From assembly GCF_026914265.1 (NCBI RefSeq), contig NC_069131.1, positions 1,213,501-1,277,500 of the forward strand: 64,000 bases of DNA, given 5' to 3'. Within the stretch, counting starts at the first letter, position 1, and each line of letters begins with the position of its first letter. The DNA is from Mya arenaria (taxonomy: Eukaryota; Mollusca; Bivalvia; Myida; Myidae). Positions 17,558-48,517 of this stretch are shown one piece after another. The notes below the pieces were generated by a model. The model was not told the origin of the DNA. It saw only the letters and a list, made by a program, of their open reading frames with translations, and made no database searches. The position numbers and the translations under genes were made by a program.

Positions 17558-17579
17558 ATGGGAAGTTGCTGTTCAAAAG
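17558..17579 (+). CDS. IRG-A exon 1: acylation-signal exon MGSCCSK
   Basis: ATG GGA AGT TGC TGT TCA AAA G then donor GTATAA. The start has a strong Kozak context (A at -3, G at +4). Gly2 with Ser6 and Lys7 fits the N-myristoyltransferase consensus, and Cys4-Cys5 fit palmitoylation. The same 22 bp occur as exon 1 of IRG-B. A possible 5'-UTR splice acceptor (GCTACAG) lies about 39 bp upstream of the ATG. Confidence 0.8.
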
Positions 17580-20500
17580 GTATAATATAGTCTTTTTATA
17601 AATGACAATTGATGACAACATATCTATTATAGTCCCAAAAGTTACACTTAGGATACATCCACAATGCAATTTATCTTATTTTTGCTAGGTTACAAATGTG
17701 AGCTATTTTTATCGCTTATTGTCAGAAACATTTGAAAATACCCCGTTTTACAAGTTTCGTTTGGATAGTAAACAATGATAATCGTTAAGTTAATTAACCA
17801 ATCATTGATTTCAAATGATTATTAAAATCATGGAATGATAAATGAATAAAAATGATTTTATATTGTTAAACGGGTGGTGGATATAGCCGGGAACATGTAA
17901 ACCATAGAATAGAAACTGTCAAATATCACTTAAAAGATTTAAAGAAATAATTTACCTAAAAATGTTATCCAGCGCTATGCAGGATAATTTATCGTTACCA
18001 AGACTGTTTATGACATGCAAGAACCATGTTTGTCGACGGCAACATAAATATTTGTAAAACTGTGTATGGTCTCGACCATTGACATCACGTTGCGATAGTA
18101 CTAGGTGTTTTACAATGACATAAATTATACATTCACTAAAAGTATTTGAGTGAACAATAAATGGATAGTCATGTAGAATTCGTGTGTTAATGATTGCTTT
18201 ATAAAACGGTTACCCTTGACACAATTTCTAGGAGCCACACATAATGCTGACGTACAGATCAACAAAATATCATCGATATCGAAAAGAAAACAAGGAATTC
18301 AAAATAGCCACGAACCAGGTAATGTTGCATAAAAGCATATACTAAATGTACTTTCTAATATAAAAAGAAATGTTATTAAATATAACATTCAATTTGATGG
18401 TGAGCGTATGTTATCTATTAATACTAACCTAGTCGTCTCACATCCTACATAAATACCTGAACGTTGCTAACAATCTAAAACACTTTCAAGAATTAGGTTG
18501 GTCTGTTCATAATTGATAGTTCATAAACAAATGTATATGCATAGCTATACAGTCATTATGAATATTTTGACACCCTTTTATAACGCATCCTGCAATTACT
18601 AAGATTGGTATTCCAAGATAATTTAAGTTGTCCATTTATCTATTGATGAATAAAATGAATAATTAACCAAAATATCAAGCGTGCGTTCGGCACGTATGGA
18701 GATATTCCGCCAATTAAAATGTAATTATAAATAGGATCTGGGATAAAATCTCGCTCAGAGCAAGCATTCAAAATAAATATATATACATCAAATCCAAGGT
18801 TTATCAGTATGTGATACGGCGTCAATAGTGTCCATCCTGTAAATATGTCGTGCGTTACATAAACTTAACAGATACACTTAGCATGTCCTGTTGATAAAAT
18901 GTCCGAATTCATGGCCATAATTAGGTGTAGTTGGACAAAATGCATTTGAATTTACCATGTACGGACCTTCAAAATTCGCAATATAAAGTTTGCGGATATT
19001 TCACAATATCGTTCAAAACCGTCATCTGTTTTTATTTGTAAAAACTAAAATGTTAGAACTTCACAACCACTGTCAGAATGTTGTAATAAGGTCAAGCGTC
19101 TTATCATTGGCAATTACTTTATATTTTTATACACAATTCTGGTGTTTTGCTTGCTTGCTAAAACGGTTGCCCTTAAAACAAATTCTAGGATTTACTAAAA
19201 ATGATGGCACAGATGTCACAGATATCGACAACAAACCACCGAGTTCGAGAAGTAAAGAAATGAATGAAGAGAGTCCCGATCGAGGTAAGTCTTCATAAAA
19301 CCAAATACCGAGTGAACTATCTAATATAATATGTTTGTTTTCCAATAGATGGTAAATTTATGTTTTATATGATTTTTAACGAACGTAGATACTGACAATT
19401 GCCTTAACTGCAAACGTCTAGTTGAGATAGAAGTTTTTGTGTGTATAGTAACAACTAAATGGTACATAAGTGGTATATCTATAGCTCCCTTTAAAATGAC
19501 AGTGCGTTTGTCATACACAATTAATACGTTTTCTATGCATTTTGGTCGCAGCCCTTGCTAGGAAAAAAACATGCTTTAGACAAGCATTTTAAATAATGAT
19601 ACATATACTTTATAGTTAAGCGGTCTATGGTATGGCGTCAACAAACATGTTACAAAAACACCATGACACACACTTTCTGCATGCAATAACCATGTCGTAG
19701 ATCCGTGGTCAAGGATATGATTTCCGTTAATTATATCTAAAGTTTTGTTATCTAAGTGAGCTGTCATAGGCTTGTTATGTAGTATTCGAGTTTTTTATGT
19801 TTGCTTTACTAAACTGTTACGCTTGAAACAAATTTTAGGATCTGCCAATACTGCTGACCTAGAGGTTGGAAACTTCAACAACGAATCTTCGAGTTCACAA
19901 AGGCAGCAAAGGAACTTCAAACAAGGTAATGGTAATCTCGTGTTATTAAATTTAAGTTTCGTTTTCATGGTATTTTTTATATGTATTCAAATCTAGGTTC
20001 AAAACAAACGTATACACTTGCCCGCAATCCAAAGGCCATTTGAAATATTAAATCGTTGTGCTCATAATTAGATCTGAATGATATTTAAGATGAACATTTG
20101 TACTATCCCATTATGAATTTGAAAAGCCTTTAAAATATATAGAGCTAAATGAGATATGTAGAAAATGTAAAAACATGAAATGGCTAATATTTATGAAAGA
20201 AAAAGAAATAATGTATCCACATCCCTCGGCGATCGACAAATCGCGGGATATTCCGCATGTTAAAATTTAATGGATGTGATTTGCGATAAATTAGTGCAGG
20301 GAAAGTTCAAAACTACATATGTTTACATTGAAACCATTGTTAAAAAAGACCTCTAGTACTGCATTAACGATAAGTGTCCACGCTAGAACTCTGTCACTCA
20401 ACGAAAAGAATTAAAGTCACCTGTTGTAAATAATAATCAGGAATGCGCAATTCCACGAGTATATGACCAACGTTTGTAGATCCGAGGTCAATTCCATTTT

Positions 20501-23500
20501 TTTACGGAGATGAGAGTATTTGTCAGAATGTATATGATTTGCATTATTTATATCTAACCTTTTGGTATTTAAGTAAGCTATTTAGGGCTTGTTTTATGTA
20601 TTTGGGTGTTTATACTTGCTTGCTAAAACGGTTAACATTGAAACAATTTCTAGAATCTATTAAAATTGCTGACGCCCTAGAGTATGAGAACAAATCACAG
20701 AGTTCGAAAAGTCAACGAAACAATCGAGGAAACCCCGACCGAGGTAATAAACTTTCTAATATTTTAAGTTTGTTTTACTAATTGTAATTGTTAAATGGAT
20801 GATACAATTATATTTCATTTGGAAACAAACATATTTACACAACGTATACAGTAAGTTAAGCCTTGCCTACTATGTATACTCAAATTTGAGAAAATAAATG
20901 TTGTAATCCTCTTTGTATTTTAAAGCACTTCAAAGTAAAAATGTCGACTTATACGGGGATTGGAAGCATAAAAAGAAACACAATGCGAAATCACGATAAC
21001 AACGATGAACATATCGATCAACAACGTTTAGTGCTCGTGCGATAAGCATTGGAATGTTTTGTCAGTTAAAGTGTTATTGTGGATATGATATGTGATATAA
21101 GTCGCTAGTAGTAAGCAATCAAAAGAAAAAGATGAAGATAAAATAAATGGTTCATATGCTTGTGACATGGCGTCAGCAATCCGTAGTATCCCGGCCAATA
21201 CTTTGACATGCATAATAAAAAAATGAAATAACCTGTTATAAAAAAATCAACATGAGAGTACAGTTATACCATTACAATACCAATATTTGTACGACCGTGT
21301 CAACAACATTTTAAAGTCTAAATGAGTTTTAATTTACCATGTCAGGGCTGTCGAAACTTTCGATGAAATGTTCGTATTTTCATTACTAGATTTTCCGAAA
21401 TTGACCCGAAATCTTTAATATAGTATAGAACGCATGTAACTTAGTAGTAGTTTTCGAGTGATTGTGTATACTTGTTAAAACGGTTACACTTAAAATATTT
21501 TCTAGGATCAACGATCAATAATGCGGAACGAGAGGTAACATTTGTCAACGAATCACCGAGTTCAAAAGTGAGTCAGACGATCAAGAGAACCCTGGAAGAG
21601 GTAATGTTCCTTAAGACAAATGCTTGTTGAGTTATATAATACATTTTTGTGTGTTTTATTGATTTTTGTTTTGATGGCAAAATTTTGTTTTGTATGTTTG
21701 CAAGTCTAGGTTCACAATAAACGTAAATTCTTGAAACTTGGTTGCAATTAAAAAGTTTGTTGGAACTATTAGCTGCTGTGCTCATAATGAAAAAATAAAT
21801 ATGTTAGTTGATTATCTATAATATCCATGTATGCACTTTTGAGCCCTTTTAAATAATCTTGACATAAATGATACACGTGAGGAAAAAATAACTGCTCAAT
21901 ACCGACAAAGTAAAAGAAGAAATGATATATCCATAATCTGTTTGAAATGAAACTTTCAAATGGATGTTAACGTTATCTTTTATTGATAAAGTATCTAGGT
22001 TCTCGATGTACATAAATTATATACTTAAGTATTACTTAACCTTATTTGCAAAAGCCAATTTGAGAAAACAGTTGATATGTGATCAATATTAAAACTAAAT
22101 AAAACAAAGATGGTTTACCTTTATTCTATCTACATATGCATATTAAAGTCCCATTTCAAAATTTTACACCCAGTAGAGTGTTATGGAAACCTACAGATTA
22201 TTATGATTCCATATCATTTCGGCCTCAACAATTTCTAATTCTCTAACAGCCACGCTTATATTTAGAATAGAATGTAGCCTGAAATCGTTACAGATAACAG
22301 TTTTTGTTCGAAGTATGCTAATCTCAATCATTAGAGATCGAATGTACATATGTAGAAAGAACTCTATATTAAATGGTCAATAAACAACGGATCACAGTAA
22401 TTTGCAAATAAGTAAAGTCCAAGCTGTTGTTTCAAACAGTAGTTATCAGGTGATGACGTTGTTAACCAATTACGTTCGATATATCGCGACTATATAACGT
22501 GAACGATTACTAAATAAACATTGCATATTAAAATAAAATATTTTTGATTTGTTTGTTGTTGTAAATTTTATATTATAACGCAAGTGCTTTTCATTATTAA
22601 TATTTTTAATAGGTTCAATAATGGGGTGATACAATAAAAATCAATTAATATTTTGATATTGTAAACATGGTGGTTGGTATGATACCGGACCTATAAACGA
22701 TGGAATGTAAACTGCCCATTTTGGTGAAATGATAAGAACGAATGCAAGATACATCGACCGGGTATAATCGACGAACTCTGCAAACTACCCTGCAAAATAC
22801 TATTGATATGTCCGTGTTGATGGCAATCTATACGTTTATGTTTCTCAGTATTATGATCGAATTTGAATTGTTGTGATATAAGATTTAATACATGTTTTAG
22901 AAAGGTAAGTATTTAAAATCAATCACTCTAAACTTAGCAATTGAAGTACAAACTGTCTAAATAACGATGAAAAAATAGAGGGAAATGGTCTACCACAACC
23001 ACATGCTTACGCTTGGCAAGTGAAATACTATCTCGCCAGTTCAAATATAGCCTTGGATGTGATTTGGCTAAAGATGACACTAAGATCAAGCATTCGCAAT
23101 ATTTATATAAACTCGGAAAATTTAGAGCAAAATTTCTCGAACAGTTGATTAATAAAATGTATGCATGTTCTATATCTAAGTTAATTAATATGTTACCGCA
23201 CAAGTACATAGTATTTGTATTTGTCACCATTGTGCACTTAATCTGGTTTCTTTATGCCTCATGGGTCTACACCTTCTGGTTTATTATTAATGTAACTTGA
23301 AGACTTGAAACTACAATCCATGGTGTGAATGTCTGTGGTATGGTGCCAATTACTCCACACGGGCTATATCTTTACCATGAAAATGAGAATTTGAATCATG
23401 ACAAAAATGTCAGTTTTTTTTTTTTGTAATAGTAAAGTCGATCGGTTCGTAAATCAATTTTGTTTTAATAAAATTCAATTTAAATGATATCAAAGTGAAT

Positions 23501-26500
23501 GTTGCTAAATTGGCGGATCATGTTAACGTGGTCAGAAGTGGTGATTTAATTAATAATACGAATAATGCAATATGATTGGCTATATCATAAAATGTTACGC
23601 ACAATATATGAAACATAACAAACCACATCGGGTCACATACACCGTCGTTGGCTAACTGGCCGGTCATATGACCCTCAGTGGTACGTAATGCGTCTTATAT
23701 ATGGCTCGAAAGTGGTATTTGATTTGTTTATTAAACTATAGAAAGTTTCAACTATTGTCAGTATGTTTCAGTTATGTCACAGAATTTAATAATTATTTGT
23801 ATGCAATTCTGTGGTATTAAAGAGAGTTGTCAAAGGTTTAGTATGTAGTATGCGAGAGTTAATACTAGCTTTCTAAAATACCTTATAAAATTAAGTCAAT
23901 CAATCTTAGAATGTTTATGACTTGAGTACAATACATCAACTACGCATCACGGAATTCGTAAAGAAAACAAATGATCCGACGAACCACGAACGATGTAATG
24001 TTTTATAAAAGCAAATACTTAGTAAACGATTTAATATAAATATATTTTAATTAATTGTTTATAAGAAAGAAGAGGATGGTAAATATAATGTCTCTTACGT
24101 AATTCATATTATAAATCAGTTTAAATACGATCCATGTATCTTTTTCAGCATCCATGTCGAAAGAAAGTGACAAAGGTAATATTCTTACTATAATTAACGA
24201 AAAGCGATTAGCTTGAAATATAAAAGTGTAGGAATTCTAAAAACGACTTAACCGATGACCATTACTCAAAGGACGAACGTTCCTTATACTAGGTACAGAA
24301 AACATATATTTGTGCATGCTGGGTGTGTCATAATGTAAGAGCAATGTCGACTGTTTATTGATGATTTGTACGTCAAATAACGAGTTGTTTTTGTCCCGAA
24401 GACATTCAGTGGTAGGATTCTTTTTAGCGGTATGGGCCCATCTCGCAATAATGTAACGACAGTGTAATGTAAAACCATAAAATACCACATGTAGCTTATA
24501 TTTGATCAGAAAATGATCCCTATTTTTGTTTTTTAAAGGAGATCAATCGCTTTACTTTTATAAGAGGAAGTACATTGTACTTGATTGGTAGGTTACACTT
24601 TGACCAGCAGTTACATTGGACTGGTGATATAGCTAGTATGTCAAATTTAAAGATAAATCAACAGTCTTTTTTAACTACACTATGTTTTAGAATCCTGAAT
24701 CTTTAGAGGTATGTCTCATTTAACGGTTAGTGCTGAAGTCCGGTTAGAGTAAGCCCATTCAGAATACTGCAAAACTATATGCCACCATTTGTAGCAACAA
24801 TAAAATAAATGCACAACGCAAAAGGATGAATATACTGTTCATATACAGCATGAACTACAAAATTTAAAAATGTATCACCTGTTGTCAGAAATGTTTTCGA
24901 AAATCGGCTTGTCCCTGGTGATTTTAGTAATCCCAATTTGTAAACATCATCCCACGTGGCAGCCGACGTTGGTATGTGATTTATTTCAAATAGTGCTTGT
25001 TCAGTTGAAATAAAAGATAGAATAAATAACATTGACTATTTATTTTTGGTGTGTTTATATGTTAATAGTGTTTAAAAATTGTAAAAAAAGAACAAATAAA
25101 GTCCCCATTTTTTAGAAAATATCCAAACGGGCATTTTTTTATTCCTCTTCAGAAATTTCAGATTTGTTAATAACAGACTGACAAGGTATTAAATGGCACT
25201 TATATATTTAAAATAGAATGACCTGAAAAGTCCATTTGCTTGATAAAGGTACCAGAAAGAGCGTAAGGAACTGTTTTAGATCAACATTTTATACTAACAA
25301 TATGAAAGAATATATTTAAAATATTCTACTTTGTAAGAAATCGTTTTTGTTACAATCATAACAGGCACATGAGATTTTCAACACGAATACGTCTTATCAC
25401 ACTTATGATATAAAGTTCACATACTTCTTACAGGTCACACTCTTCTTTTTTTCAAACTTCTTTCCACGTCGTTTTGCCTATATGCCTTTCCTTCTACAAC
25501 CGTAAACAGATAGGTCGGCCATTGGAATATTTTGTGTACATGTCCTCCATGTATGTGCCTTTATATAAAAAGTCATTCACTCTGCCACATAGCAGCAAAC
25601 CGTGGGTGTTTTAGCGTCCCCATGAACGTGTTTTGTATTTATAACGATTGGTTTGTTTTAAGATTTGCTATCACAAGTTGCACGGCGGTAGGGAATGTGT
25701 CTATAGTACGCTTGTTGTTTTCTGAATGATTAAAAAGCGACTCTAAACTTTTAAGTACCATGTATGAATTCTTTCATGCAGTATCTTTAGCGAACACTTT
25801 ATTTGAAAATAATAATCAATTACCGCACCATGATATAGATGTTCAAATAAGCATTGCCTGATGGTATGGGTATATCTGTTGAGATGTTTCAAGAACATGA
25901 TTGATATTCACCAGATGCTAAATATGTAATATCTAAATTGGCGATTTTCGAAAACTACTGTTATCTAAAATGTTATCGTTTGTTAGTATAATAAAAAAAC
26001 GTTATGATATGTTAAATATTTATAGTTCTGATAGTTTAGAGTTAATTAAAACAGGGAGTATAAATGAATAAAGAATGTCTTACTGAACTTACAAAAAACA
26101 ACAACAATTGAACTGTTTCTAATCTGCGTTGTCCTTGATATTATGGTAAAGAGAATATTTTTGACTTTCTTTCAAGATGGCTGCTTCCTAAGTGATAGCG
26201 TCTAAGATATTTAAAGTATGCGAAAAGAGGAAATATTATCCGATTAAAATTGATCCGCTGAAAGTAGCTAGGCAGAACCAGTTTTCTGTCCATTCCGATG
26301 CCATGTCTTAATTTTTATTTCGAAAATCCTCATGAGAAAGCAAGCTTTGCATACTATACGATATGCACAGTTTTTAGTTACCTAAAGAAGATGATATTAC
26401 ACTTTGTATATACATATTAGGTGTATTTCCTTTGTGAAGTGCTTAAAATGTTGGTAAACTGAAACAAGGCGCTTGGGAATGTGTCGATAGATAAAAGGAA

Positions 26501-28022
26501 TAACAATGGTGTACTGAATTATGGAAACGTTGACATTATGCCATTAATAAGAAAAGTATTTTTCTTCAATACTCACAATGCTTCTGACAAATGGCGCTCT
26601 TGTGTATGCAAATTATAGAATATGATAATGCACATGCCCATCGAACTCCTAATCAATAAAAACAGCGGATATCATAAAAACATGTTAAGACCTAAATGAA
26701 ACTACGTAAATTGAGTTCAGCTAAAATGAATGAAGGCGATCTTTCTAAGAAAATGTGCGCCTGTTCTTTTTAAGCCATTTTTAAGCCATTAACCTTAACA
26801 AACTCTTTTTCAGAGTCAAGTATTCACCGAGAAATCATACATTAATATATTAAAGGAACAAGGCATATCCGGTTTTCAAAGGGAGCTAGAAAATGATTTG
26901 GACAGCTGGAAAAATATTCAATTGAATATTGCTGTTGTTGGGGAAAGTGGGTCAGGAAAATCATCTTTAATAAATGCCATCCTTAATCTTAATGCGGACG
27001 ACGAAGGCAGCGCTGCAGTTGGCGTCAGCGAAACAACGGGCACGATAAATAGTTACCTAAACTCGAAACGTCCAAATCTCGTTTTCTGGGATTTTCCAGG
27101 CGTAGGGACACCCACATATCAGAAGGAACATTATTTTGATCGATTGGAAAGTGTGTCAGGAACAAATTTGTCTAATTTTGACTTTTTTCTAATAACTTCT
27201 TGTGGGCGGTTTCGGGAGAATGATCTTTGGTTCGCAAAACAGATATTACAACAAAATAAACAGTTCTACTTTTGCAGAACACAAATAGACAACGATGTGT
27301 CATCTGACAAAAAAGCTCACCCAACATCACATAATCAAGAGAAAATGCTACAAGAAATACTGGAGGATATACGATCTCAATTGTGTCAAAACGGAATTAA
27401 AACAAAAGAAGAACACATCTTTTTAGTGGACAGTTATCATACGAATAATTATGACTTTGACAATTTGATGAAAACACTGATACAAAATGCTCCCACTTTG
27501 AAAAAAGACACTTTAATCTTGTCAATGTCAAGTTACTCAAAAACAGTTATTGAAGGAAAGGTTAAAGTTCTGAAAGAAAGAGTTTATAAGGTAGCTTTGC
27601 TAGCATGCGTTGGAAACATTCTACCCATACCAGGACCTGGTGTGATTGTTGAAATGACTGTGATGTTAAAAGAAGCAAATTTTTATCGCGAACAATTTTG
27701 CGTTGACGACAACAGCTTAGCGAATATTTCGTCAAACCTGAAAATGGAAGAATGCATTTTACGAGGTCGAATTGGTTTGAAAACCCATACCATTTTGTCA
27801 TCAACGAAGGAGATATTAAAGTTTCTCTCTATCCATGCGGCATCGGACGCTTTTGAGACCATATCAAAATTCACACTACCAATCATTGGAAGCATTATTT
27901 CAGTGTCAATAAGTTATCCCTTGTGTATGTGGAGCCTGAACGAGTTTATCGATATGTGTGCATCTGAAGCCCACAAAACTCATGCAGTAATTGCGGATTG
28001 GCTGAAATCAAAACATGACTAA
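17558..28022 (+). CDS. IRG-A: immunity-related GTPase gene with modular N-terminal linker exons (whole gene span)
   Basis: Exons recognised: 17558-17579, 18232-18318, 19189-19284, 19839-19925, 20654-20743, 21506-21600 (frameshifted), 24149-24175, and the GTPase exon 26814-28022. The protein would be a lipid-anchored IRG GTPase: acylation signal, disordered Ser/Asn-rich linker, then G domain and helical domain. IRGs in vertebrates act on intracellular membranes and pathogen vacuoles; that role here is inference. All small exons are phase 1 to phase 1. The GTPase exon's first acceptor (after CAG at 26811-26813) needs phase 0, so an unfound 1-to-0 exon is missing, or the AAG acceptor at 26818-26820 is used. 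Skipping 21506-21600 and using the latter gives an open frame of 536 codons. The N-terminal half may also be decaying, leaving only the GTPase exon functional. Confidence 0.7.
18232..18318 (+). CDS. IRG-A cassette exon 2 (linker module)
   Basis: 87 bp, phase 1 at both ends, acceptor TTTCTAG and donor GTAATG. The encoded module begins G-A-T-H-N-A-D-V-Q and ends S-H-E-P. The 33 bp before the acceptor (ACGGTTACCCTTGACACAATT) recur before the other cassette exons, showing descent from one exon-plus-intron unit. Confidence 0.75.
19189..19284 (+). CDS. IRG-A cassette exon 3 (linker module)
   Basis: 96 bp, phase 1 at both ends, acceptor ATTCTAG and donor GTAAGT. The module begins G-F-T-K-N-D-G-T-D and ends E-S-P-D-R, with the shared centre D-N-K-P-P-S-S-R-S. 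The upstream landmark AAACGGTTGCCCTTAAAACA is present. Confidence 0.8.
19839..19925 (+). CDS. IRG-A cassette exon 4 (linker module)
   Basis: 87 bp, phase 1 at both ends, acceptor ATTTTAG and donor GTAATG. The module begins G-S-A-N-T-A-D-L-E-V with a central S-S-S-S and ends N-F-K-Q. The upstream landmark is AACTGTTACGCTTGAAACAA. Confidence 0.8.
20654..20743 (+). CDS. IRG-A cassette exon 5 (linker module)
   Basis: 90 bp, phase 1 at both ends, acceptor TTTCTAG and donor GTAATA. The module begins E-S-I-K-I-A-D-A-L-E with Q-S-S-K-S in the centre and ends G-N-P-D-R. The upstream landmark is AAACGGTTAACATTGAAACA. Confidence 0.8.
21506..21600 (+). pseudogene. IRG-A cassette exon 6, frameshifted by one base
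   Basis: Acceptor TTTCTAG and donor GTAATG are intact, but the exon is 95 bp, one short of a multiple of three. By comparison with exons 3 and 5 the loss is in the A-run near 21564-21567 (AGTTCAAAAGTGAG); after it the expected ending E-N-P-G-R appears in another frame. Inclusion would shift the frame downstream. A GTGAGT at 21568 could act as an internal donor. Confidence 0.7.
23910..23998 (+). pseudogene. Decayed seventh cassette exon of IRG-A
   Basis: Resembles the cassette exons (shared text GACTTGAGTAC, ATCAACTACG, CACGGAATTCG, GAACCACGAACGA before a GTAATG) with a TTAG acceptor. In the expected phase it meets TGA within four codons and the donor context is altered. It lies in the long intron between exons 6 and 8. 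Confidence 0.6.
24149..24175 (+). CDS. IRG-A short exon 8 (possible)
   Basis: 27 bp between acceptor CTTTTTCAG and donor GGTAAT, phase 1 at both ends, encoding A-S-M-S-K-E-S-D-K. Possibly the counterpart of the IRG-B exon at 45134-45165 (which has M-A-S-S-S-V-E-G), but that one ends in phase 0. Short, so moderate support only. Confidence 0.45.
25153..25185 (+). pseudogene. Possible degenerate counterpart of IRG-B mini-exon DRTDWINRFKA
   Basis: Flanked by CTCTTCAG and GTATTA and alignable with the IRG-B exon at 44102-44133 (shared blocks CAGATT, ATAA, ACAGA, ACAAG/AAAGC before GT). It is 33 bp rather than 32 and reads into TGA in the expected phase, so it cannot supply the phase 1-to-0 switch that IRG-A needs. 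Confidence 0.3.
26814..28022 (+). CDS. IRG-A terminal exon: IRG-type GTPase domain
   Basis: An open frame from the acceptor (TTTTTCAG before 26814) to TAA gives 402 codons; no convincing ATG opens it, supporting an upstream spliced N-terminus. Counting from 26814: amphipathic N-terminal helix 6-37; G1/P-loop GESGSGKSS at 43-51; switch I E-T-T near 73-75; G3 D-F-P-G at 93-96; G4 R-T-Q-I-D at 155-159, where the usual Lys of TKxD is Gln; then the IRG helical domain with the hydrophobic hairpin V-G-N-I-L-P-I-P-G-P-G. It aligns along its whole length with the IRG-B terminal exon, and the length matches the ~400-residue IRG family. It should bind and hydrolyse GTP at membranes, though the altered G4 makes guanine specificity uncertain. 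An AATAAA at 28474-28479 is a candidate poly(A) signal. Confidence 0.92.
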   Translation, partial: SQVFTEKSYINILKEQGISGFQRELENDLDSWKNIQLNIAVVGESGSGKSSLINAILNLNADDEGSAAVGVSETTGTINSYLNSKRPNLVFWDFPGVGTPTYQKEHYFDRLESVSGTNLSNFDFFLITSCGRFRENDLWFAKQILQQNKQFYFCRTQIDNDVSSDKKAHPTSHNQEKMLQEILEDIRSQLCQNGIKTKEEHIFLVDSYHTNNYDFDNLMKTLIQNAPTLKKDTLILSMSSYSKTVIEGKVKVLKERVYKVALLACVGNILPIPGPGVIVEMTVMLKEANFYREQFCVDDNSLANISSNLKMEECILRGRIGLKTHTILSSTKEILKFLSIHAASDAFETISKFTLPIIGSIISVSISYPLCMWSLNEFIDMCASEAHKTHAVIADWLKSKHD

Positions 28023-28473: not shown

Positions 28474-28479
28474 AATAAA
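28474..28479 (+). terminator. Candidate poly(A) signal of IRG-A
   Basis: AATAAA about 450 bp after the IRG-A stop codon, the first good match downstream. No transcript evidence. Confidence 0.35.
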
Positions 28480-31095: not shown

Positions 31096-31187
31096 CTCCG
31101 TTAGGCTTAAAGGAACGTTAACGGTGAAACTGACCGTTAAAGTTAATTGAGATAAGAACCTCGATTAAAGTTAACGGCAGATTCATT

Positions 31188-33301
31188 ATGGCAATTATAT
31201 TTTTACCAAATGTAAGGAAACAGCGTCAGTATAGACATACTCCTCATGTTCAGCATCTTGATGATGGGGAAATGCACGAGAGGTATCGTTTCACAATTGA
31301 TGGCGTAGCATTTTTGGAGGATATATTGAAGGATGACATAAAAAGAGACACTCACCGGAACAGGGCCCTCAGTGTGCGACAGATGGTTCTTATAACCCTT
31401 CGGTTCCTCGCCACAGGGGCGTTTTTCAATGTTGTAGGAGACAGCATGGGTTACCACAAATCAACAGTTTCTCGTGTGGTAACCCACGTGACAGATATAA
31501 TTGGCAAAAGCATGAAACGATTCATAGTATGGCCTTCCGACGAACAGAAGAATAGAGTGAAGAGCGGATTTTTCACATCGGCAGGCTTCCCTCCCGTAGT
31601 GGGGTGCGTTGACGAGACACACATTCGTATCCAGACCCCTTCTGTTGATGAGCCAGCTTATGTCAACCGAAAAGGCTATCATAGTAACAACATGCAGGCA
31701 GTTTGCGATCATGAAGGTAAAAAATGATTGAAATTTCACCAGAAACATTCTAAAGATCCTTTTCTTGTAAACGCTTTATGAAATAATTTTTGTCAACTCG
31801 TCTTAGACCGAAACGGTCATTAAATTTGAAATTCACCCCGATTATCGATCAATTATGGGCATATTCGGTTTGGTCAGAATGTGACAATTATCATAAAAAT
31901 GTTTACAAATTATCCACCGTAATGTTTTTCATTTAACTTAATACAGTTTACCACTCTAACCTTACCATACGCAGGGATGGCTCCAGGATTTGATGATTGA
32001 GGGGTTTAAATTGGGACATACAGCTCTTAGTGCTCCCTCTCTCCCCCGACATCGACACAAATAAACTTTACATTTGTGATTGTACATTAAAGAACATTAA
32101 GGAACCGTCCCTGATGATATGGGCTGGAGGCCTTCATGCAATAAATGTTTGAATTGAATTGATGATAAAAAAGGCGAATGTTGTTTATAATCTTGTCATA
32201 AAATTGTAAGACTGAACGTACTGTTAAGCTAATTGGTAAATAACTAAATCATTATTTTCCCAGAATTGTTCACAAGTGTCAACGCCAGTTGGCCGGGCTC
32301 GTGCCATGATGCACACGTGTTGAGGACATCAGGGCTGTGCAACAGGCTATAACGAGACAATCTATGTCTGGAAGATGGGGTGCTGCTTAGAGATAGTGGG
32401 TAAGTAGCATATATAAAGCATATGATGTCATCAGATGAAATTCGTAGCTGAACCGTGGTCTAGTTGTTAATTATAAACACTTCACTTTCAATCAAGGGGT
32501 CGCATGTTTTTATTCCCTGTCGCATCACTAAACGTACTAAACGGGAGGGACGTTAAATGGGGGTCAGTGCTATACACTGATGCACGTTAAAGAACCAGGG
32601 TAGCTCAAACCAGGGTTACATTCTGTCTGTGCACAGCATGCTCCAAAAATTGAAATGACTAATATTCTTAAGGGAGCAATCGCTGAATAAGGGCAATCTT
32701 ACACACACCCGTATGATTACATGATTGTAACATCGGGACGTTGTTGTTTTTTTGTCAATTTTATTATTGATATTGTTTTTATTCCCCGCCCCAGGTATCC
32801 TTTTAAGGCCATATCTCATGACGCCGTTAATGAACGCTGACACTCCTGCCAAGGAGAGCTACCAGCTACCCCATAGTAGAATCCGGGTTTGCATAGAAAG
32901 GGCCTTTGGTAGGCCCAAGCGGCGATTCCACGTGCTGCACAGTGAGGTACTTTCTTTCATATTTTTTTCGAATACTCGGACTAAGTTTATTCAGTCTATA
33001 GTTTAAGTGCATAAAGTGATTGCTTTCATTTTTAACTTTACTGTTCGCCAATCTGATATGTGATGATATTAAAAACTTTGCTATGATTACTATTTAATTA
33101 TTTTTATTTCAGATCAGACTTAGTCCAGACAAGGCCTGTCGCATAGCTACAGCCTGTGCAATTCAACATAATGTAGCAATCATGTTTAACATGCCAGAGG
33201 TAGATGATGTAGATGTCATACAGAACATTGATAATAATGTGCAGGATGATGTTGGTACTGGAACAGCTACACGGGATTGTATTGTTAACAGTTACTTTTA
33301 A
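31188..33301 (+). pseudogene. Harbinger transposase (HARBI1-like, DDE_Tnp_4), four exons, damaged
   Basis: Exons: 31188-31716, 32264-32399, 32795-32946, 33113-33301, joined in consistent phase (1, 2, 0) with GT/AG borders. Exon 1 gives a helix-turn-helix-like region (about residues 61-98, ending G-Y-H-K-S-T-V-S-R) and the first catalytic Asp in V-G-C-V-D-E-T-H-I (Asp142). Exon 2 has N-A-S-W-P-G-S-C-H-D and the second Asp in L-R-D-S-G; exon 3 begins Y-P and holds the catalytic Glu in C-I-E-R-A-F-G with the basic end P-K-R-R-F. Exon 4 ends the family-typical Q-H-N tail. Damage: an in-frame TAA at 32350-32352 and one extra T in the run 32801-32804, which shifts the frame before R-P-Y-L-M-T-P. 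The reaction would be cut-and-paste transposition. Confidence 0.92.
32450..32660 (+). mobile_element. tRNA-derived SINE in Harbinger intron 2
   Basis: Begins with a degenerate tRNA-like head (GTGGTCTAGTTGTTA, then CAATCAAGGGGTCGCATG in place of the B box). It continues with the conserved body ending TGCACGTTAAAGAACCAGGG and TAGCTCAAACCAGGG, a layout common in bivalve SINEs. It lies just after the donor of transposase exon 2, so it is nested in the transposon. Exact ends and target duplications are not determined. Confidence 0.6.
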
Positions 33302-37110: not shown

Positions 37111-37113
37111 AGT

Positions 37114-39000: not shown

Positions 39001-39004
39001 GATT

Positions 39005-39475: not shown

Positions 39476-40395
39476 ATTGTTATGCATATTTTCGAATGTC
39501 TAGTCAGTGATGGCAGCTGCTAACAAAAAGGCACTCGGACCAGAAACATTAATCAATCCAGAAATCAAAAACTTTACACATCTTTGACTGTTTTTGAATA
39601 AGTATCATTTGTTGATACTTTCATTATATTATCATTATTAACACATTTGCCTGTCGTCAGAAAAGAGGCCTTATTTAACAAGTATTACTTCATTGTTGTT
39701 TTGAGTATAAAAGATCAAATCAGAGAATTTGCGTTTATATGTCTTAATAAAAGCCATGGTATTTATGTGTTTCTGTTTACAATAAGAAATATACCATGAG
39801 GTGAGCATTATGACAGTGCCTTTTTGAGAAATTTTAACATTTTAAGACATTGCATGGACGGTTTGAACTATTTATAAGACAAATTGTGACTTTTTCAAAT
39901 TACGCTCAAAAGAACTTGTATAAAAAACTGACTTTTGTTCGCTCTTGTGAAACATATTCTTAGTTGTAAATCCTGCAGCTGTGAAAAAGTGCCTATAAAA
40001 AACACTAAAAAAAACCTTTATAATTGTATTATAACATCGAACTTGCTCTGAAGAAATTATTAGTCAAACATTGCATGAGGTAAATGATTCTGATACAATA
40101 AGTATAAGCACTACTATCGGGAAATGGATTAAAATGTTATAGTGCGTGCAAAATATTAAAAAAATGCTTATGCTACTGACAAAAAGAACAAATTCTGTAT
40201 TCATCTGTTTATACAAGTCAAACAGTATAACTTGACTGATTGGTTTTAACAATATTTATTTTATTGTTAGAATTTCAGATTCCAACGTGTTTAAAGTATA
40301 TCAATGAAATGGCAAATGGAGCAGAGTTTTTTAGTTCAAAAAGGTCTTTAAATCGATTTTGTTAATCATGTTGCAAAAAAAGAGGATATTTAAGA
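39476..40395 (+). repeat. Conserved tail following satellite array A
   Basis: This non-coding segment is alignable in order with about 60945-62345 after array B. Shared landmarks: GCATATTTTCGAATG, GGCAGCTGCT, CGGACCAGAAACA, GAGCATTATGACAGT, CATTGCATGGACGGTTTGAAC, GCTCTGAAGAAA and TCTTTAAATCGAT. Satellite and tail therefore form one mobile or duplicated unit. Confidence 0.8.
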
Positions 40396-41881: not shown

Positions 41882-41887
41882 TTTATT
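41882..41887 (-). terminator. Candidate poly(A) signal of IRG-B
   Basis: AATAAA on the minus strand, about 275 bp beyond the IRG-B stop codon. Motif only. Confidence 0.3.
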
Positions 41888-42159
41888 GGTATATTTCGTA
41901 TATGTCATAATGTACATTAAGTTTAATTCACAATCAATTTAAACGAAGCAGTTCCATTCATTTTGTTGGGCACCAAGCGTAGTATAGACATGCTTCTTAT
42001 TTTGCTCATATTAAAGCATTTAGTATTCTAGGTAATGCTGAGGTAGATCACACGAAGGCAGAATGTTTGCTTAGATTGATTTCATTTCAACGCATTAATA
42101 CCCATTAACAACAAACGGATAGTTCTTCCATAAATACAACATGTGTTCTTCAAACTATA

Positions 42160-43362
42160 TTAAACCGCGCTTTCTTTACTCAGCCAAATTTCAATTTCAC
42201 TATTTAAGGCGTAGGCCTCTTTCTCACACACTGCTAACACTTTGTCTAGACTTCTCATGCACACTGGGTAGCTAATACATGCTGAAATGATACTTCCAAA
42301 AACGGGTAAAGATATCTTTAGGAGCGATTCAACACCTTCTGTTGCAAAAAAAAGAGCTAGAAATTTCAACAATGACTGTGTAGATGCAAACAATATGTTT
42401 GAGCTGATGTCTGCCTTCTTTTTTAAATCGTTTAAATCCTTATTCATATTTTTCGCCAATTCCTCCAAACTTTTGTCATCAATTTGAAGCTGTTTGCGAT
42501 AGAACTGAGCTTCATTGTAAATTGCCACAATTTCTATGAACTCACCTACTCCTGGAAGCGGTACAAGTGAACCGACGGATGCCATGATCGCCGTTTTAGC
42601 CATCCGGTCTTTTAATGCTATAATCTTCGTTTCAATGACTTCCTTTGAACGAGAAAATAATGCAAATATCACTGCTTTTCGTTTAATCGCGGGGGCATTT
42701 TTAATCAATTCTGTCATCAAAGTTGAAAAATCATGTTCGAGTTCGTTGTGACAATTTACAAGAGCTATGAATATGTTTTCCTCATTCAAACCGGCCTTGA
42801 GTAAATTGTTTTTGATATCTTCGCGTATTTCGACTATTAACTTTTGTTTATTGTGTGTCTTCGGGTGAGCTTTTTCATTATCTAAAATGTCGTGGTCAAT
42901 ACATGTTCTAACAAAATACACATGCAAGTTTTTTTTCTCAATCATTTTTGCAAACCATTTGTCGTTGTCTCTGAATCGCCCCCGAGAAACTATGAGGAAA
43001 AAGTCATACTTATCCAAATTAATTTTGTTTAAGTACTCATTTTTTGGGAAGTTGGGCGTTCCAATACCAGGCAAATCGAAAAAAGTCACGTTTTCGTGCT
43101 CAGGGTGAACATAACTTTTTTCTTCAAAGGTAGTTTCTTTACATCCTACATCTGCTGCACCTTCGTCGTCGGCTGTCAGGCCAAGAATAGCATTAATGAG
43201 GGACGATTTCCCGGAGCCAGACTCTCCGACTAACGCTATATTCAATCCAACATGTTTCCATTCATTTAAATCATTTTGTATTTCGTTTTGCATGTCTTTT
43301 ATTCCATCACGTTTCAGAATTCCGATGTACCGCATAACGTTTTCCATTGTACAGGCAGACAT
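42160..43362 (-). CDS. IRG-B terminal exon: IRG-type GTPase domain
   Basis: 400 codons after acceptor TTAATTCAG; the first codon is ATG, so this exon could also be translated alone. Residues counted from it: N-terminal helix 7-36; G1 GESGSGKSS at 46-54; switch I K-E-T-T near 75-78; G3 D-L-P-G at 96-99; G4 R-T-C-I-D at 152-156, with Cys where GTPases normally have Lys; then the IRG helical domain with V-G-S-L-V-P-L-P-G-V-G and a second hydrophobic stretch, L-P-V-F-G-S-I-I-S-A. It aligns with the IRG-A terminal exon end to end. Family length and domain order are normal; only G4 is unusual. Probable GTP-binding membrane-remodelling GTPase. Confidence 0.95.
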   Translation of the reverse strand: MSACTMENVMRYIGILKRDGIKDMQNEIQNDLNEWKHVGLNIALVGESGSGKSSLINAILGLTADDEGAADVGCKETTFEEKSYVHPEHENVTFFDLPGIGTPNFPKNEYLNKINLDKYDFFLIVSRGRFRDNDKWFAKMIEKKNLHVYFVRTCIDHDILDNEKAHPKTHNKQKLIVEIREDIKNNLLKAGLNEENIFIALVNCHNELEHDFSTLMTELIKNAPAIKRKAVIFALFSRSKEVIETKIIALKDRMAKTAIMASVGSLVPLPGVGEFIEIVAIYNEAQFYRKQLQIDDKSLEELAKNMNKDLNDLKKKADISSNILFASTQSLLKFLALFFATEGVESLLKISLPVFGSIISACISYPVCMRSLDKVLAVCEKEAYALNSEIEIWLSKESAV

Positions 43363-45448
43363 CTGAATTAAACACAGAATTATTTTAAAATTAATATTAA
43401 TCCATTTTTTCTTTCAGAAATGACTCATGAAACGCGTCAAAATTATGAACAATATTAACCTTACTTATCTTACTGTATAATTTCTAAATAGAACTTATTA
43501 TCTAATGAAATATGCAATTTTTAGTAGACTACATCTTCTAGATCATTCTAATTTTGAACATCGCTTTCTGAAAGAGAGTGGACTTAACGTGAGATGTCAT
43601 TCAGTACAGACACTATTAAACGATTTTGATACAGTTATAAAAACAAGCCTTGGCAAAATTTGGTACTTTTTCAAACAAGTTTGATAGTGTTGGTATTAAT
43701 TAACTACGCTTGTTATCTTCTATAAATATATTCAACGTAAAAACAGCGCTGTATATATACAACTTTGCTTTACCACTTGTTCAAGGCTATGTTTCATGAA
43801 GTCACGTCAAAAGTTATAATACTAGTTATATATATAAACAAAACTTTATGATTACAATTCACACAATGTAACAAATCAATATCTAAACGAGCCTATAATT
43901 TTAGGTGTTATCAGAAGAAGAAAATTCTGTGAAACAACATAAATAAAAAACAACAACATTGATTACATTAATTTGTATAATTAAACAATTTGGCTTTCAT
44001 AAACTCAATGCAGTCAAAACATGCTGGGGTGAAAGGCGTGATTGCTACAAAGCCACTTTTAAACCGTGGCATTATCTTTAAGCCATTTCTCCAATACTTA
44101 CTGCTTTAAATCTGTTTATCCAATCTGTTCGATCTGTAATTTAGAAAAAATATAATTTTACCACACAGTATATGGATAAATTTCACTTGTTTAGGTAATC
44201 TAAAATGGAGTTGATTAGTCTTTGATTTGTCTTTTTTTATAAATTGGACGTTTATCACAAGGCGCTAGGTTCGATGATTTTAAGCAGCAAAACAAATAAA
44301 TTCAAAGGAAATAGTTCATTTTTTGACAGAAATAGAAAATACTTACCCGGAGGAAGTGGTGGTGTATATGAAAGGGTTTCCTCATGCTCTTCTATTTGTT
44401 CAAAGTCGCCTTCACTTTGATTCATGCCACTATCTTTAGTGACTTCATTTTGATACACCTCTGTTTCAGTGTTTGTAGGAGCGTTTTCCCTATTCGGATT
44501 TACATCTTCATCAACGTATGCAAACAGTTCTTGTTCATGACTATCATCAATATTGGTTGGGTCTATTTTACTTATGGAATTCATGTCTCCGCTATTGGCA
44601 TTGAATGGCAATTTATCTTGACGATCATTACCATTGGTGTCTGTATCATTATTGTTTGTTTGATCGATTTCCGTATTTGGTTTTGTATCTGTGCTTCCGT
44701 CAATTACATCATCTTGTTTAACATTGCCATTGGTGTCGCTATCATTGATAAGTGTTTGTTCATGTTCCCTATTTGATTTCATACATGTGCAATCATGAAT
44801 TACTTCTTGTTCACCATCACTCTTGCATTCTTTGCTACTGTTGCAAATCTGATGAAAAAAAACCATATATGTTTATCCAGTGAGCACTTACTAAATGTGT
44901 TTTGTTTGTTCACAGAAAAATCTTTCTTGGTATGTATAATTTTCTTTCTCATTGTTTAAACGCACAAATATAGGTAAATGCAAAGCTCAACGTGACGAAT
45001 CCGTGATATAGGGGGATACTGGATTGACAGATGAATTGATGTCGAAGGGTAGATTAATTGATGGAATCCAAATAATTATGCACAGTGATATGATGATGGA
45101 TGGATAAATGGATGGATATAAAACATAACTTACCCCTTCTACTGAGGAGCTTGCCATTCTGATATCTGCAACATATTTTGGTTATTTTATTAAACACACA
45201 TTTACCGTGCACAAGAATTCTACTCTTGAAATGAAACTGTCAAAAAGTTAGTTCACGTTACAAGTATTATTATTAATGATAACGCGTTAACGCAGTGCTG
45301 TATAAAATTAGCACCTTTAATATGAAAAGCTTATACTAAGAATAGAGAAGTAGATATTTATTATAGGTATTGTTTTTTTGTTTTTTTTCAATCTTGTATT
45401 CCAAAGTGAGATAAAATCTAGCAACTAGTACTTGTGTCGTGTCTCATA

Positions 45449-45483
<35 letters not shown>

Positions 45484-45494
45484 CGTGCGTGTGT

Positions 45495-45544
<50 letters not shown>

Positions 45545-48517
45545 GTGTGTGTGTGTGTGTGAGCGATACCAAGTTTTGAAAAGTCTTTTCTTAGCATGCA
45601 ATAATATCTTTTTATCGTACACGTTAAATAGTCGATATATATCGAACGTAATCGGTTAACAACGTCGTGACTTGATGAAAAGAACTGACACAACAATTTT
45701 CAAAAAATAAGTACATTTAATGATGAATGCAATGTAATTAGTATTGATCATTAATTCCATGTTATTTCCGATTGTACATAGTTCAACATACGATTTGTTC
45801 TCACTGGGACACATATCTTGTAAACAAAAAAAGTGTCAAACTAGCTAAGTTTAAATCTGAACACAAACATGGCTAATTTCGGAGATATTGATACTGCTGA
45901 GTCAAACTGTGTATGAAGCACAATTTCTTTGGCTTTTAACAATTTTTGGATGTAAATTGTATTTTAAATAGGGCTTTAATACGCATGCATGGATAGGATA
46001 AGTGATCCATTTAATTATCATTAATATTTAATCATGTACACAGCTACTATTTTTATGAAACTAGTTTTTCATCAATACAACACATAATGTTACCATCCAT
46101 ATGAAACTAACAATTAATAAAACAACATATATATGCTAGTTCACCCAGATTTTGTTTATATGGATCATTACCTCGTTCGGAGTTTTCTTGGTTATTGGTT
46201 TGCCTTCGCGAGCTAGATGGTTCCTTGTTGATGTCTATTACCTCTAAGTCAGCATTTTGCATTGCTCCTATAATTTGTTTCAACGTAACGTTGGTAACGT
46301 TTTAATAACGCATGCATCTACACCCAAATAGTTTATACAGATGCCATAACAGTTCAGCTTTATTCCAAAGTATTAGATAAAATTAATATAACCTTAAAAC
46401 TCCTGACCAAAATGCAACGTTCTAACAACGTTTAAAACGTTCGCAAGTTTTATAACGATTTCAGATACTTGGTTTAAATACTCATTTGATTCGGTAACCT
46501 TGATATGACGACGATGAACAACTCAAACCCGATAATCACAAAGTAGTATGTCCCTCGGATAAACATGGGGCTTTCACTCGAGTAAAACTGTTTAATTTCC
46601 TTTTATTCCTTCTAATGATAAGGACACAAATTGTTGACGCCATACCACAGAACTGTAAACCATGTACTCTTTTCGTGTATACATATTAATTAATTTTTAT
46701 GAGTGCTTTCTGTCAGTGATTTGATCCCAGAAAACATGCGCAATTATAAGTTCAACTTGCCTAATAATCGATACTCCCCAAGCGCGCGCATATTGTTGAT
46801 GATAAATCATTTGTTCTTTTCTTTCATCGATTTATTTAATCTGTTCTTGCCAGCCTCATTTATATATAATTGAAACTTACAGTAAAGAGAAATTACTTTA
46901 TTTATAAGATTGTTCACGCATTTGATTATTGTAACAGTACCATGTTTGTTGTTCTTCTGACCTCTCAGTTTTCCATCCGAACTCTTTGCTTCTTTGTTGA
47001 TGACCTTTAAGTCAGAATTGGTCGTGGATTCTAGAATTTGTTTAAGGGGTAATCATTAAAAAAATCAAACACTACATAACACACCCAGCTTAGCTCATTT
47101 AAACACGAAAGATTGGATATAGTAAATGTACATTATAAAACGCTTGGCATTTTTGCAACATTCTGATCATAGTTGAGACGATGTATGGATAAGTTATTTC
47201 AAATACCTGCAGTCAGTAAGTGTTATCACAGATATTTTCTGCGATCACATTCTTACTGGTGGAATATTCCGAAACTTGTCGAGCGCACGCTTAGAAAGTA
47301 GAGGATACATAATTTCTTCGTTTCATTTATCGATATTGGACCGTTTTTTATATTGTTTTCCATACACCTCTCATCTATGTTTGTTTGTCTGGAAAAATGA
47401 CTTCAAAATGAAAACAGGGAGGATATAGCTATACAACCTTTCTTGAATTAGATGTATCATCCAGTTTTAATTTTGAACACAGAAGCGTATTGCTATTATT
47501 GCCTTCTTTGCATTGTATTCAAGGTTCTAGTATTAACATACGTTATTAACCTAGGTTTTTATCTTTATACAACATGTTTTATTATCAAATTGATATTTAA
47601 AGATAATATAACAAACTTTTTGTATTAGTTAGTAAACTTAGTACTTGCGCTTATGATACATTACCTCGATCGTGGCTCATTTGATTCCTTTGTTTTCTTT
47701 TCAAATTCCGTGATTTGTTGTAGATGTCTTTAAACTCTGAGTCATGCGTCAAACCTAGAATTTGTTTCAAGGGTAAATGTTATAAGAAAGGAAGCAAAGA
47801 TACACTTATACTACATAAGAAGCCGTAATTTGAGGATTAATATACATGGGTAGCACGAAATTTGTTCGAAGCATTATATTTTTTCTTACTTTTCTATGAC
47901 AGTCCCATTTATGTAAAGATGTCTTTGTAGAGGACATTTACCCTAAAAATAACTGCAGTTTAAGGGTTATTATAGTTATCTTAAGATCAAAATTCCGTTG
48001 CAACTGAGTCGGTGGCAACTTCGAAAGTCACTTAGTTGACACTTATGATTTTAAAGGCTAAGTTTAAGGGTCGTAGTTCTTGATAATAAATGAAATTACT
48101 CAGGGTGATCTATTTAAACATTTGGTATTGATAAGCAAATATATTGCTTGACTTTCGCCGGCTCCATTTTCATGGTCAATTTCTATTGAACAATTTGTCA
48201 AATTGCTGTGGCCTTTCAAGATTCTCTAATTCTACAAAATCTTTATCCTAATGTGTTTATGATGAACTTCAATTGATTAAATCATTTCCTTGTATTTCAG
48301 TTGCCTTCTAACGAATAAATTGAAATGAAAACGAAATATATCTGACAACAAGCGACCACGATAGCCCACAAAGGGCATTCACAAATTAGCAATACTAAGA
48401 AGACAACTCCGTTTATAATTAATCATTTTGAAGTTATCGGGAAAATAGTGAGTAGTTTCTCATTAATTAACAATATTAAAGAAACTTAAGAATACCTTTT
48501 GAACAGCAACTTCCCAT
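42160..48517 (-). CDS. IRG-B: complete eight-exon immunity-related GTPase gene (whole gene span)
   Basis: Minus-strand exons: 48517-48496, 47754-47665, 47030-46962, 46267-46172, 45165-45134, 44848-44347, 44133-44102 and 43362-42160. Every border is GT/AG and phases agree (1,1,1,1,0,1,0), giving 2046 coding bases, 681 codons plus stop. Order of the product: MGSCCSK acylation signal; three ~23-32-residue Ser/Asn-rich modules from cassette exons; a short M-A-S-S-S-V-E-G piece; a 167-residue acidic Asn/Asp/Thr-rich tract; the mini-exon D-R-T-D-W-I-N-R-F-K-A; and the 400-residue IRG GTPase. Predicted location is the cytosolic face of membranes; a cell-autonomous defence role is inferred from the family. 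It is convergent with IRG-A and part of the same inverted duplication. Confidence 0.88.
44102..44133 (-). CDS. IRG-B mini-exon 7 (phase 1 to 0)
   Basis: 32 bp between acceptor AAATTACAG and donor GTAAGT, encoding D-R-T-D-W-I-N-R-F-K-A. It converts the phase-1 end of the acidic exon to the phase-0 start of the GTPase exon, so it is required for a full-length reading frame. Confidence 0.8.
44347..44848 (-). CDS. IRG-B exon 6: acidic low-complexity linker
   Basis: 502 bp, phase 0 to 1, acceptor TTTCATCAG and donor GTAAGT. It encodes about 167 residues rich in Asn, Asp, Thr and Glu with imperfect internal repeats (D-T-N-G-N-x-K/R-Q-D occurs twice about 34 residues apart; x-I-D-Q/P-T-N also recurs). 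It ends in the proline-rich Y-T-P-P-L-P-P. No fold is recognised and it is probably disordered. IRG-A has no counterpart that I can find. Confidence 0.85.
45134..45165 (-). CDS. IRG-B mini-exon 5 (phase 1 to 0)
   Basis: 32 bp, acceptor TGTTGCAG and donor GTAAGT, encoding D-I-R-M-A-S-S-S-V-E-G. Its phase change matches the phase-0 acceptor of the long acidic exon, which supports both calls. Confidence 0.75.
45448..45561. repeat. (GT)n microsatellite
   Basis: Long GT tract with GC/GCGC interruptions in the IRG-B intron between exons 4 and 5. The Cys-Val and His-Thr frames are artefacts. Confidence 0.95.
46172..46267 (-). CDS. IRG-B cassette exon 4 (linker module)
   Basis: 96 bp, phase 1 at both ends, acceptor AAATTATAG and donor GTAATG. 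The module begins G-A-M-Q-N-A-D-L-E-V-I-D-I-N, has P-S-S-S-R-R in the centre and ends E-N-S-E-R. It is closest in pattern to IRG-A exon 4. Confidence 0.8.
46962..47030 (-). CDS. IRG-B cassette exon 3 (linker module)
   Basis: 69 bp, phase 1 at both ends, acceptor AAATTCTAG and donor GTCAGA. The module begins E-S-T-T-N-S-D-L-K-V-I-N and ends G-K-L-R. It is shorter than its relatives; the donor is weaker. Confidence 0.7.
47665..47754 (-). CDS. IRG-B cassette exon 2 (linker module)
   Basis: 90 bp, phase 1 at both ends, acceptor AAATTCTAG and donor GTAATG. The module begins G-L-T-H-D-S-E-F-K-D-I and ends M-S-H-D-R. The sequence before its acceptor, TTACCCTTGAAACAAATTCT, is the same landmark seen before the IRG-A cassettes. 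Confidence 0.8.
48496..48517 (-). CDS. IRG-B exon 1: acylation-signal exon MGSCCSK
   Basis: The 22 coding bases are the same as IRG-A exon 1, with donor GTATTC and a strong Kozak context (CAAAATGG). Gly2/Ser6 fit N-myristoylation; Cys4-Cys5 fit palmitoylation. Confidence 0.8.

Follow-up and report, generated by a model that had tools for sequence, protein, structure and literature searches.

Exon organization of the two GTPase genes

The window, a 64,000-nucleotide stretch of contig C10 of Mya arenaria, contains two convergent IRG (IIGP) GTPase genes, of a type used in pathogen defence, each of which probably encodes a tethered GTPase comprised of an acyl anchor, a cassette-built linker varied by duplication and splicing, and the GTPase itself. 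The row of short exons between the start and GTPase exons, noticed in a first-pass annotation of this DNA, was recovered in both genes as eight related exons, of which gene 1 has five and gene 2 three, and the exon-row architecture is well supported at the level of sequence.

Gene 1 (+ strand)
17558..17579, +, start exon E1, MGSCCSK, phase 0→1
18232..18318, +, cassette C1, 87 nt, phase 1→1
19189..19284, +, cassette C2, 96 nt, phase 1→1
19839..19925, +, cassette C3, 87 nt, phase 1→1
20654..20743, +, cassette C4, 90 nt, phase 1→1
21506..21600, +, cassette C5, 95 nt, phase 1→0, shorter by a single base than the related cassettes
22445..22507, +, 63-bp non-coding element, sharing 87% identity with its gene 2 copy
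~23910..24004, +, relic cassette (ninth copy) with in-phase stops and an altered base ahead of the donor
24149..24175, +, possible small exon x, 27 nt; the C16:40.88M copy has a 35-nt 1→0 candidate in its place
26814..28022, +, GTPase exon (IIGP, Pfam match), entry phase 0

Gene 2 (− strand)
48496..48517, −, start exon E1, MGSCCSK, phase 0→1
47665..47754, −, cassette D1, 90 nt, phase 1→1
46941..47030, −, cassette D2, 90 nt, phase 1→1
46172..46267, −, cassette D3, 96 nt, phase 1→1
45614..45676, −, 63-bp non-coding element, gene 2 copy
45134..45165, −, exon E5, 32 nt, phase 1→0; an ATG starting at 45157 is in frame
44347..44848, −, exon E6, 502 nt, phase 0→1, polar, without a Pfam match
44102..44133, −, exon E7, 32 nt, phase 1→0, DRTDWINRFKA
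42160..43362, −, GTPase exon (IIGP, Pfam match), entry phase 0

Gene 2 gives an unbroken 688-codon reading over eight exons, with three more exons (E5, E6, and E7) separating its cassettes from the GTPase exon, and gene 1 gives a 570-aa reading that is open with every cassette included and has one possible exon (x) in the corresponding region. A search of gene 1 for a 1→0 exon homologous to E7 did not find one, and yielded exon x instead.

The assignment of both GTPases to the IRG family was borne out by matches to Pfam PF05049 (E = 4.2e-71 and 3.1e-73 for genes 1 and 2, respectively), which cover positions 11–368 and 11–315 of the 375 in the profile. The solved IRG structures related to them are chains of Irga6, Irgb10, and TGTP2, the best relative being Irga6 for gene 1 (E = 5e-50) and Irgb10 for gene 2 (E = 1.4e-53). 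The P-loop GESGSGKS (G-x4-G-K-S) is present in both, the two exons are open over 402 and 400 aa, and the differences between them per codon position are 0.44/0.28/0.62, with most at the third. A tree was built from the two window genes, 36 hand-picked longer matches out of the 105 IRG matches in the Mya genome, and two outside proteins, and in it the window genes group with other Mya IRGs. Their GTPases belong to different subgroups despite the common front end. This combination suggests that front ends have been exchanged between IRG GTPases. Neither gene product was among the protein-database matches, an absence that says little because ~8000 candidates were scored per search and ten Mya IRG entries were returned, compared with the 105 genome matches; for the front of gene 1, no database protein was matched (143 candidates, none at E ≤ 10).

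Cassette exons

The length range of 69–96 bp first given for the cassettes was not reproduced, the measured lengths (C1–C5, then D1–D3) being 87, 96, 87, 90, 95, 90, 90, and 96 nt. Phase 1 at both ends was found in seven of the eight (87–96 nt, divisible by 3), the exception being C5 (95 nt, 1→0), the end of which is read in a different frame from its relatives. Consequently to be qualified is the proposal that any subset may be included in frame: it holds for all eight subsets of D1–D3 in gene 2, and C1–C4 are optional in gene 1, but C5 is needed, being part of all 32 of the 64 gene 1 forms that are open and in frame. An inner donor of C5 at +62 scores better than its listed donor (8/9 compared with 6/9 consensus positions) and has the same exit phase by length.

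The 3'-intron landmark was recovered, with six window matches at ≤3 mismatches (five in gene 1 and one in gene 2) and none in 100 shuffles; genome-wide, its 24-base form GGTTACCCTTGAAACAAATTCTAG matched six places at the same threshold, all at window cassettes (6/8), and the reversed control matched none. The intron end CTAG was found at six of the eight cassettes, with TTAG at C3 and ATAG at D3. The eight cassette acceptors are slightly short of pyrimidines, with a fraction of 0.41–0.65 versus 0.53–0.82 at 15 acceptors of two other Mya IRG genes (P0001/P0002), a small comparison with overlapping ranges in which the E5 acceptor of gene 2 also scores 0.41.

The encoded modules are related as proposed, although the motif drawn for them is loose and pairwise amino acid identity among the seven symmetric cassettes is 19–48%. 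The expected frame is open in all eight cassettes, with the other two forward frames open in one and none of the eight, respectively; the background chance of an open frame is 0.13 per 90-nt frame, and a star simulation gave ~1.5e-4 for the openness of the seven symmetric cassettes. Within the cassette exons, 44 of 52 gaps in pairwise alignments have lengths divisible by 3 (27/28 without C5), compared with 19/112 upstream and 32/105 downstream. Among the seven symmetric cassettes, differences at the three codon positions number 228/223/240. The cassettes keep their reading frame and hardly their protein sequence (dN ~ dS), a pattern to be expected of a spacer.

Start exon and its relatives on C16

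The MGSCCSK start exon is present as an identical copy in both genes with a phase 1 exit; 22 of 22 bases are the same, against 67 mismatches over 183 bases of aligned flank. Both copies begin with MGxxxS, an acyl-type signal, and have two cysteines that might be palmitoylation sites, and E1 is likely to be a membrane-anchor exon. Three further copies with one to two mismatches, encoding MGS(C/S)CSK, were located at C16:40882577, 41106056, and 41787552. A cassette match lies ~0.7 kb downstream of each (E = 2e-8 to 3.2e-8; one diverged cassette per locus), and IRG GTPase matches follow at ~4 kb. The three 3-kb loci are 99.5–99.9% identical and therefore count as one independent case, and their IRG copies look broken and pseudogene-like.

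Elsewhere, profile R1 detected no window-type cassette in 20 other loci, which cover ~20 kb of upstream DNA for each of seven IRG genes and include those of P0001/P0002, and a profile search of L073 was also negative. A search for the start exon that tolerated as many as six substitutions found no copy in the other loci examined. An MGSCCSK match near P0001 (C16:22686996, 3 mismatches) was rejected as chance or relic: GG stands where the donor should be, and a single match was obtained with the reversed control as well.

Front-exon rows in other Mya IRG genes

P0001 and P0002, with 71–73% identity to gene 2, and P0049 resemble the window genes in having phase-1-bounded front modules (tandem in P0002 and P0049) followed by a GTPase exon, and differ from them in their start (MDS..., or hydrophobic in P0049) and in unrelated module sequences. 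In P0002, for which the exon placement covers residues 1–276 of 637, the start exon (0→1) is followed by one 1→1 exon of 297 nt, a tandem array of three 50+55-nt pairs, a 35-nt 1→0 exon, and a phase-0 GTPase exon; E7 of gene 2 matches this 35-nt exon of P0001/P0002 by position and phase. On present comparison, the rows in these genes are analogous, not homologous, to the window cassettes.

Each 50+55-nt pair of P0002 is 1→1 as a pair, and the model keeps all three in one protein. Together with the full readings of genes 1 and 2, which are open with every cassette, this agrees with a constitutive array, where every cassette would always be included and linker length would differ between genes or over evolution by copy number only. 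We consider such an array rather unlikely, in view of two sets of predicted models from other genes. The P0049 gene has nine plus-strand cassette matches, eight of them intact at 45 nt, and its NCBI predicted 'isoform X3' uses five intact cassettes and leaves out three. Over 10 kb at the C3:28.57M gene, intact 45-nt cassettes number eight. In P0005/P0006 (isoforms X2/X3), different front exons are joined to one GTPase exon, although some of the common exons are read in two frames, so that some of these isoforms may have no function. These models lend class-level support to variable cassette inclusion, which is plausible in the window genes.

Possible internal promoter and decay

In each gene the 63-bp element follows the cassettes and may be an internal promoter or enhancer; its two copies are the only genome matches, and a TATA-like stretch was read in it by eye. 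The conservation and TATA-like stretch of this element favor a division into separate units, in which the E1-cassette part would be either a relic or an independent transcript and the GTPases would be expressed from a promoter near the element, with gene 2 starting at the E5 ATG, which is in frame with E6–E8. Mouse Irga6 offers a precedent, with two promoters in use according to the cited section (PMC2848866). However, E5 also fits as a 1→0 internal exon, and the E1-plus-cassette combination also precedes IRG matches on C16. Moreover, the gene 1 GTPase exon has no usable Met of its own, the first of its 402 residues to be Met being number 178, behind the P-loop. Exon x does contain an ATG, but reading from it leaves that exon in phase 1 and is not in frame with the GTPase exon, which is entered in phase 0. 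Separate units are accordingly judged improbable.

Decay of gene 1, or of both genes, with the open frames as leftovers, draws on the missing base of C5, the 8 nt by which exon x is shorter than its C16 counterpart, the relic cassette at 23.9 kb, and the broken C16 relatives, but is very improbable given that both GTPase exons are open, with their differences most frequent at the third position of codons, and that the −1 (C5) and −8 (exon x) changes compensate, which leaves gene 1 open over its full reading.

Proposed tethering and comparison with known IRGs

The tethered-GTPase explanation builds on the exons and their phases, openness and frame conservation, the IRG identity, the C16 front ends, and the parallel Mya rows, all as read from the DNA. 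Were transcription to begin at E1, acylation of MGSCCSK would anchor the GTPase to a membrane, and the tandem, mostly frame-neutral cassettes would encode a polar, probably disordered linker before the one-exon GTPase. Cassette number would change by duplication over evolution and, at this locus, by inclusion or skipping per transcript, and would set the reach of the GTPase from its membrane, with selection preserving frame and length, not sequence. Against this explanation stand the asymmetry of C5, the pseudogene-like C16 relatives, the P0002 model, which reads as a constitutive array, and the lack of window-type cassettes in the seven other IRG loci and L073.

It is possible, and put forward tentatively, that clams of this lineage diversify IRGs by swapped, splice-variable anchor exons and duplicating cassette rows, giving many membrane distances. 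If so, bivalve cell-autonomous immunity would have diversified by the tether (cassette number, splicing, and front-end exchange), without adaptive immunity, and tether-length control of IRG action on membranes would become directly testable. Mouse IRGs, in contrast, are varied by gene copy. Their coding sequence is typically on one long 3' exon in the account given by the cited section (PMC1297648).

For cassette exons in invertebrate IRGs, suggested at the outset to be an undescribed arrangement, searches covering open-licence PubMed Central papers turned up no description. Mouse Irga6/IIGP1 and Irgb10 share the IIGP GTPase and N-terminal MGxxxS with the window genes; the same section reports the motif in eleven mouse IRGs and its myristoylation in Irga6 (PMC1297648). 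Unlike mouse IRGs, the window genes have the anchor on a separate exon, and as many as six more coding exons are predicted between it and the GTPase exon. IRGQ (FKSG27), described there as without GTP-binding motifs, resembles them in its short exons, three of which encode ~100 N-terminal residues ahead of one long IRG-like exon; the section makes no mention of a tandem cassette row (PMC1297648). In Dreissena polymorpha, P0048 is similar to the window genes in carrying a ~66-aa module twice ahead of an IRG GTPase, and differs in its cysteine-rich start.

Structure and reading frames of the two IRG genes

The window is C10:1213501-1277500 of the 1.216-Gb assembly (18 contigs) of Mya arenaria (Bivalvia, order Myida), a search of which returned 105 IRG matches, counting pieces and broken copies. 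Within the window, two IRG GTPase exons converge:

26814-28022, plus strand: gene 1 GTPase exon (Pfam IIGP, E 4.2e-71)
42160-43362, minus strand: gene 2 GTPase exon (Pfam IIGP, E 3.1e-73)

The window also contains a DDE_Tnp_4 transposase fragment (31134-31724, plus strand, E 5.7e-06) and, at 58246-60476, repetitive ORFs that include units of RPLSAVSLRPRLGTPDY type.

Gene 2 is predicted to consist of the MGSCCSK start exon (E1; phase 0->1), cassettes D1, D2 and D3 (1->1 each), E5 (32 nt, 1->0), E6 (502 nt, 0->1), E7 (32 nt, 1->0) and the phase 0 GTPase exon, with a stop-free full reading of 688 codons. The predicted order in gene 1 is MGSCCSK, C1-C4 (1->1), C5 (95 nt, 1->0), an optional small exon x (27 nt) and the phase 0 GTPase exon, giving 561 or 570 amino acids. 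C5 has one base fewer than related cassettes, which shifts the frame in which its end is read. At C16:40.88M the counterpart of x has 35 nt and is 1->0, eight nucleotides longer than x; the two differences, of one and eight, sum to nine, and the full gene 1 reading is therefore in frame.

The first-pass annotation described rows of cassettes symmetric in phase, any subset of which could be included without breaking the frame. The description is largely correct, but the asymmetric C5 is an important exception. Enumeration of exon subsets left 32 of 64 open and in frame in gene 1, all containing C5, so that the unrestricted claim fails there. It holds for gene 2, where the 24 of 64 permitted subsets comprise all eight combinations of D1-D3, each with three back-end combinations.

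Coding character of the cassettes

The expected frame is open in all eight cassettes, compared with one and none of eight for the other two forward frames; a star simulation, which ignores shared ancestry, gave 1.5e-4 for the openness of the seven symmetric cassettes. Pairwise gaps are multiples of three in 44 of 52 cases within exons, compared with 19 of 112 upstream and 32 of 105 downstream (the pairs are non-independent). Mean pairwise identity is highest in the landmark, the conserved 3'-intron stretch (0.69), followed by the donor (0.63), exon (0.61), downstream (0.58) and upstream (0.52) regions, with 0.41 for shuffled upstream sequence. Substitutions among the symmetric cassettes are spread evenly over codon positions (228/223/240); between the two GTPases, by contrast, the differences per codon are 0.44/0.28/0.62. 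The cassettes thus retain their frame with an almost unconstrained peptide, which is the signature expected for a spacer. Polar, charged, glycine and proline residues (a letter set of our choosing) make up 77-79% of the front part versus 55-58% of the GTPases.

Cassette rows in other IRG genes

The gene for P0002, another M. arenaria IRG protein, carries three tandem pairs of 50- and 55-nt exons ~750 bp apart, then a 35-nt 1->0 exon and a phase 0 GTPase exon; the pairs are unrelated in sequence to the window cassettes and equal to them in outer phases. Ahead of the IRG in the P0049 gene (C3:28571800-28581799) are nine plus-strand cassette matches in 10 kb, with more P0049 modules beyond this stretch; eight of the nine are open, 45 nt long and bounded by AG and GT. 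Isoform X3, an NCBI predicted model, uses five intact cassettes in genomic order (256, 1275, 7160, 7880 and 8529, counted on the reverse complement) and omits three that are likewise intact (3883, 4659 and 6395); units 256 and 4659 encode identical peptides, and 256 was assigned by order. The P0005/P0006 isoforms, also NCBI predicted models, combine a single GTPase exon with differing front exons, some common exons being read in two frames. P0003 matches one unbroken stretch with its own Met, and thus not every M. arenaria IRG has such a front. These parallels strengthen the case for variable linker-cassette splicing in the window genes, which we regard as plausible. A Dreissena polymorpha protein (P0048) carries a ~66-aa module twice ahead of its IRG GTPase.

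Proposed mechanism

An MGxxxS motif occurs in eleven mouse IRGs, with myristoylation demonstrated for Irga6, according to PMC1297648, and MGSCCSK fits this motif. If transcribed, the window genes would encode a protein tethered by acylation of MGSCCSK, with a conventional IRG GTPase at the end of a flexible linker; cassette skipping may set linker length through cassette number and thereby influence function. Against this proposal, neither product was among the protein-search matches, although these included just ten M. arenaria IRG entries. According to PMC7251785, Iigp5 is one of the families that have expanded in two buried bivalves, and bivalve IRG expansion is therefore already known.

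Shared front ends and different GTPases

At up to three mismatches the start exon was found at six genomic places (reversed control, one). Two of these lie in the window and three, reading MGSSCSK, on C16; the sixth is doubtful. The C16 loci are 99.5-99.9% identical across 3 kb and therefore represent one independent case.

L061-L063, L065 and L066, C16: near-identical loci with an MGSSCSK exon and one diverged cassette, then broken IRG GTPase copies

The cassette (60 nt, 1->1 in the single copy spelled out) follows the start exon at each locus, and ~4 kb beyond are IRG GTPase matches interrupted by stops or frameshifts. The front end thus recurs before other IRG copies. In the longer pieces, the two C16 GTPase copies compared are 52-66% identical to gene 1, and thus nearer to it than to gene 2 (39-50%). 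A genome-wide search with the 24-base landmark form gave no match outside the window.

In a tree of 40 rows, including 36 chosen from the 105 IRG matches, the gene 2 GTPase clusters with the P0001 and P0002 loci (support 100/100), proteins with 100% matches to GTPase exons on C16 and C5. The gene 1 GTPase belongs to another subgroup, where it clusters with six rows (98/90, the inner forks being weakly supported); a wider group, of eleven rows, takes in both subgroups (93/90). The genes nevertheless share alignable DNA in blocks (~13.0-22.5 kb versus 52.3-45.6 kb), among them E1, cassettes and an element of 63 bp, as listed here:

13000-22507 and 45614-52267: inverted arms whose shared blocks carry the front ends, with GTPase ends of different subgroups between them
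22445-22507 and 45614-45676: 63-bp element, 87% identical, with a TATA-like stretch

The element has no genome match besides these two copies. Alignable non-coding pieces differ by 5-37%, a range biased towards what still aligns, and 40 of 59 four-fold sites differ between the GTPases, near saturation. Window-type cassettes were not found in ~20 kb upstream of the P0001/P0002 loci; such a front end may be ancestral and lost in that group. The most economical explanation is duplication of the front end, or its exchange, onto a different GTPase. Both arms also contain minisatellite-like arrays (14587-16232 and 49746-50557).
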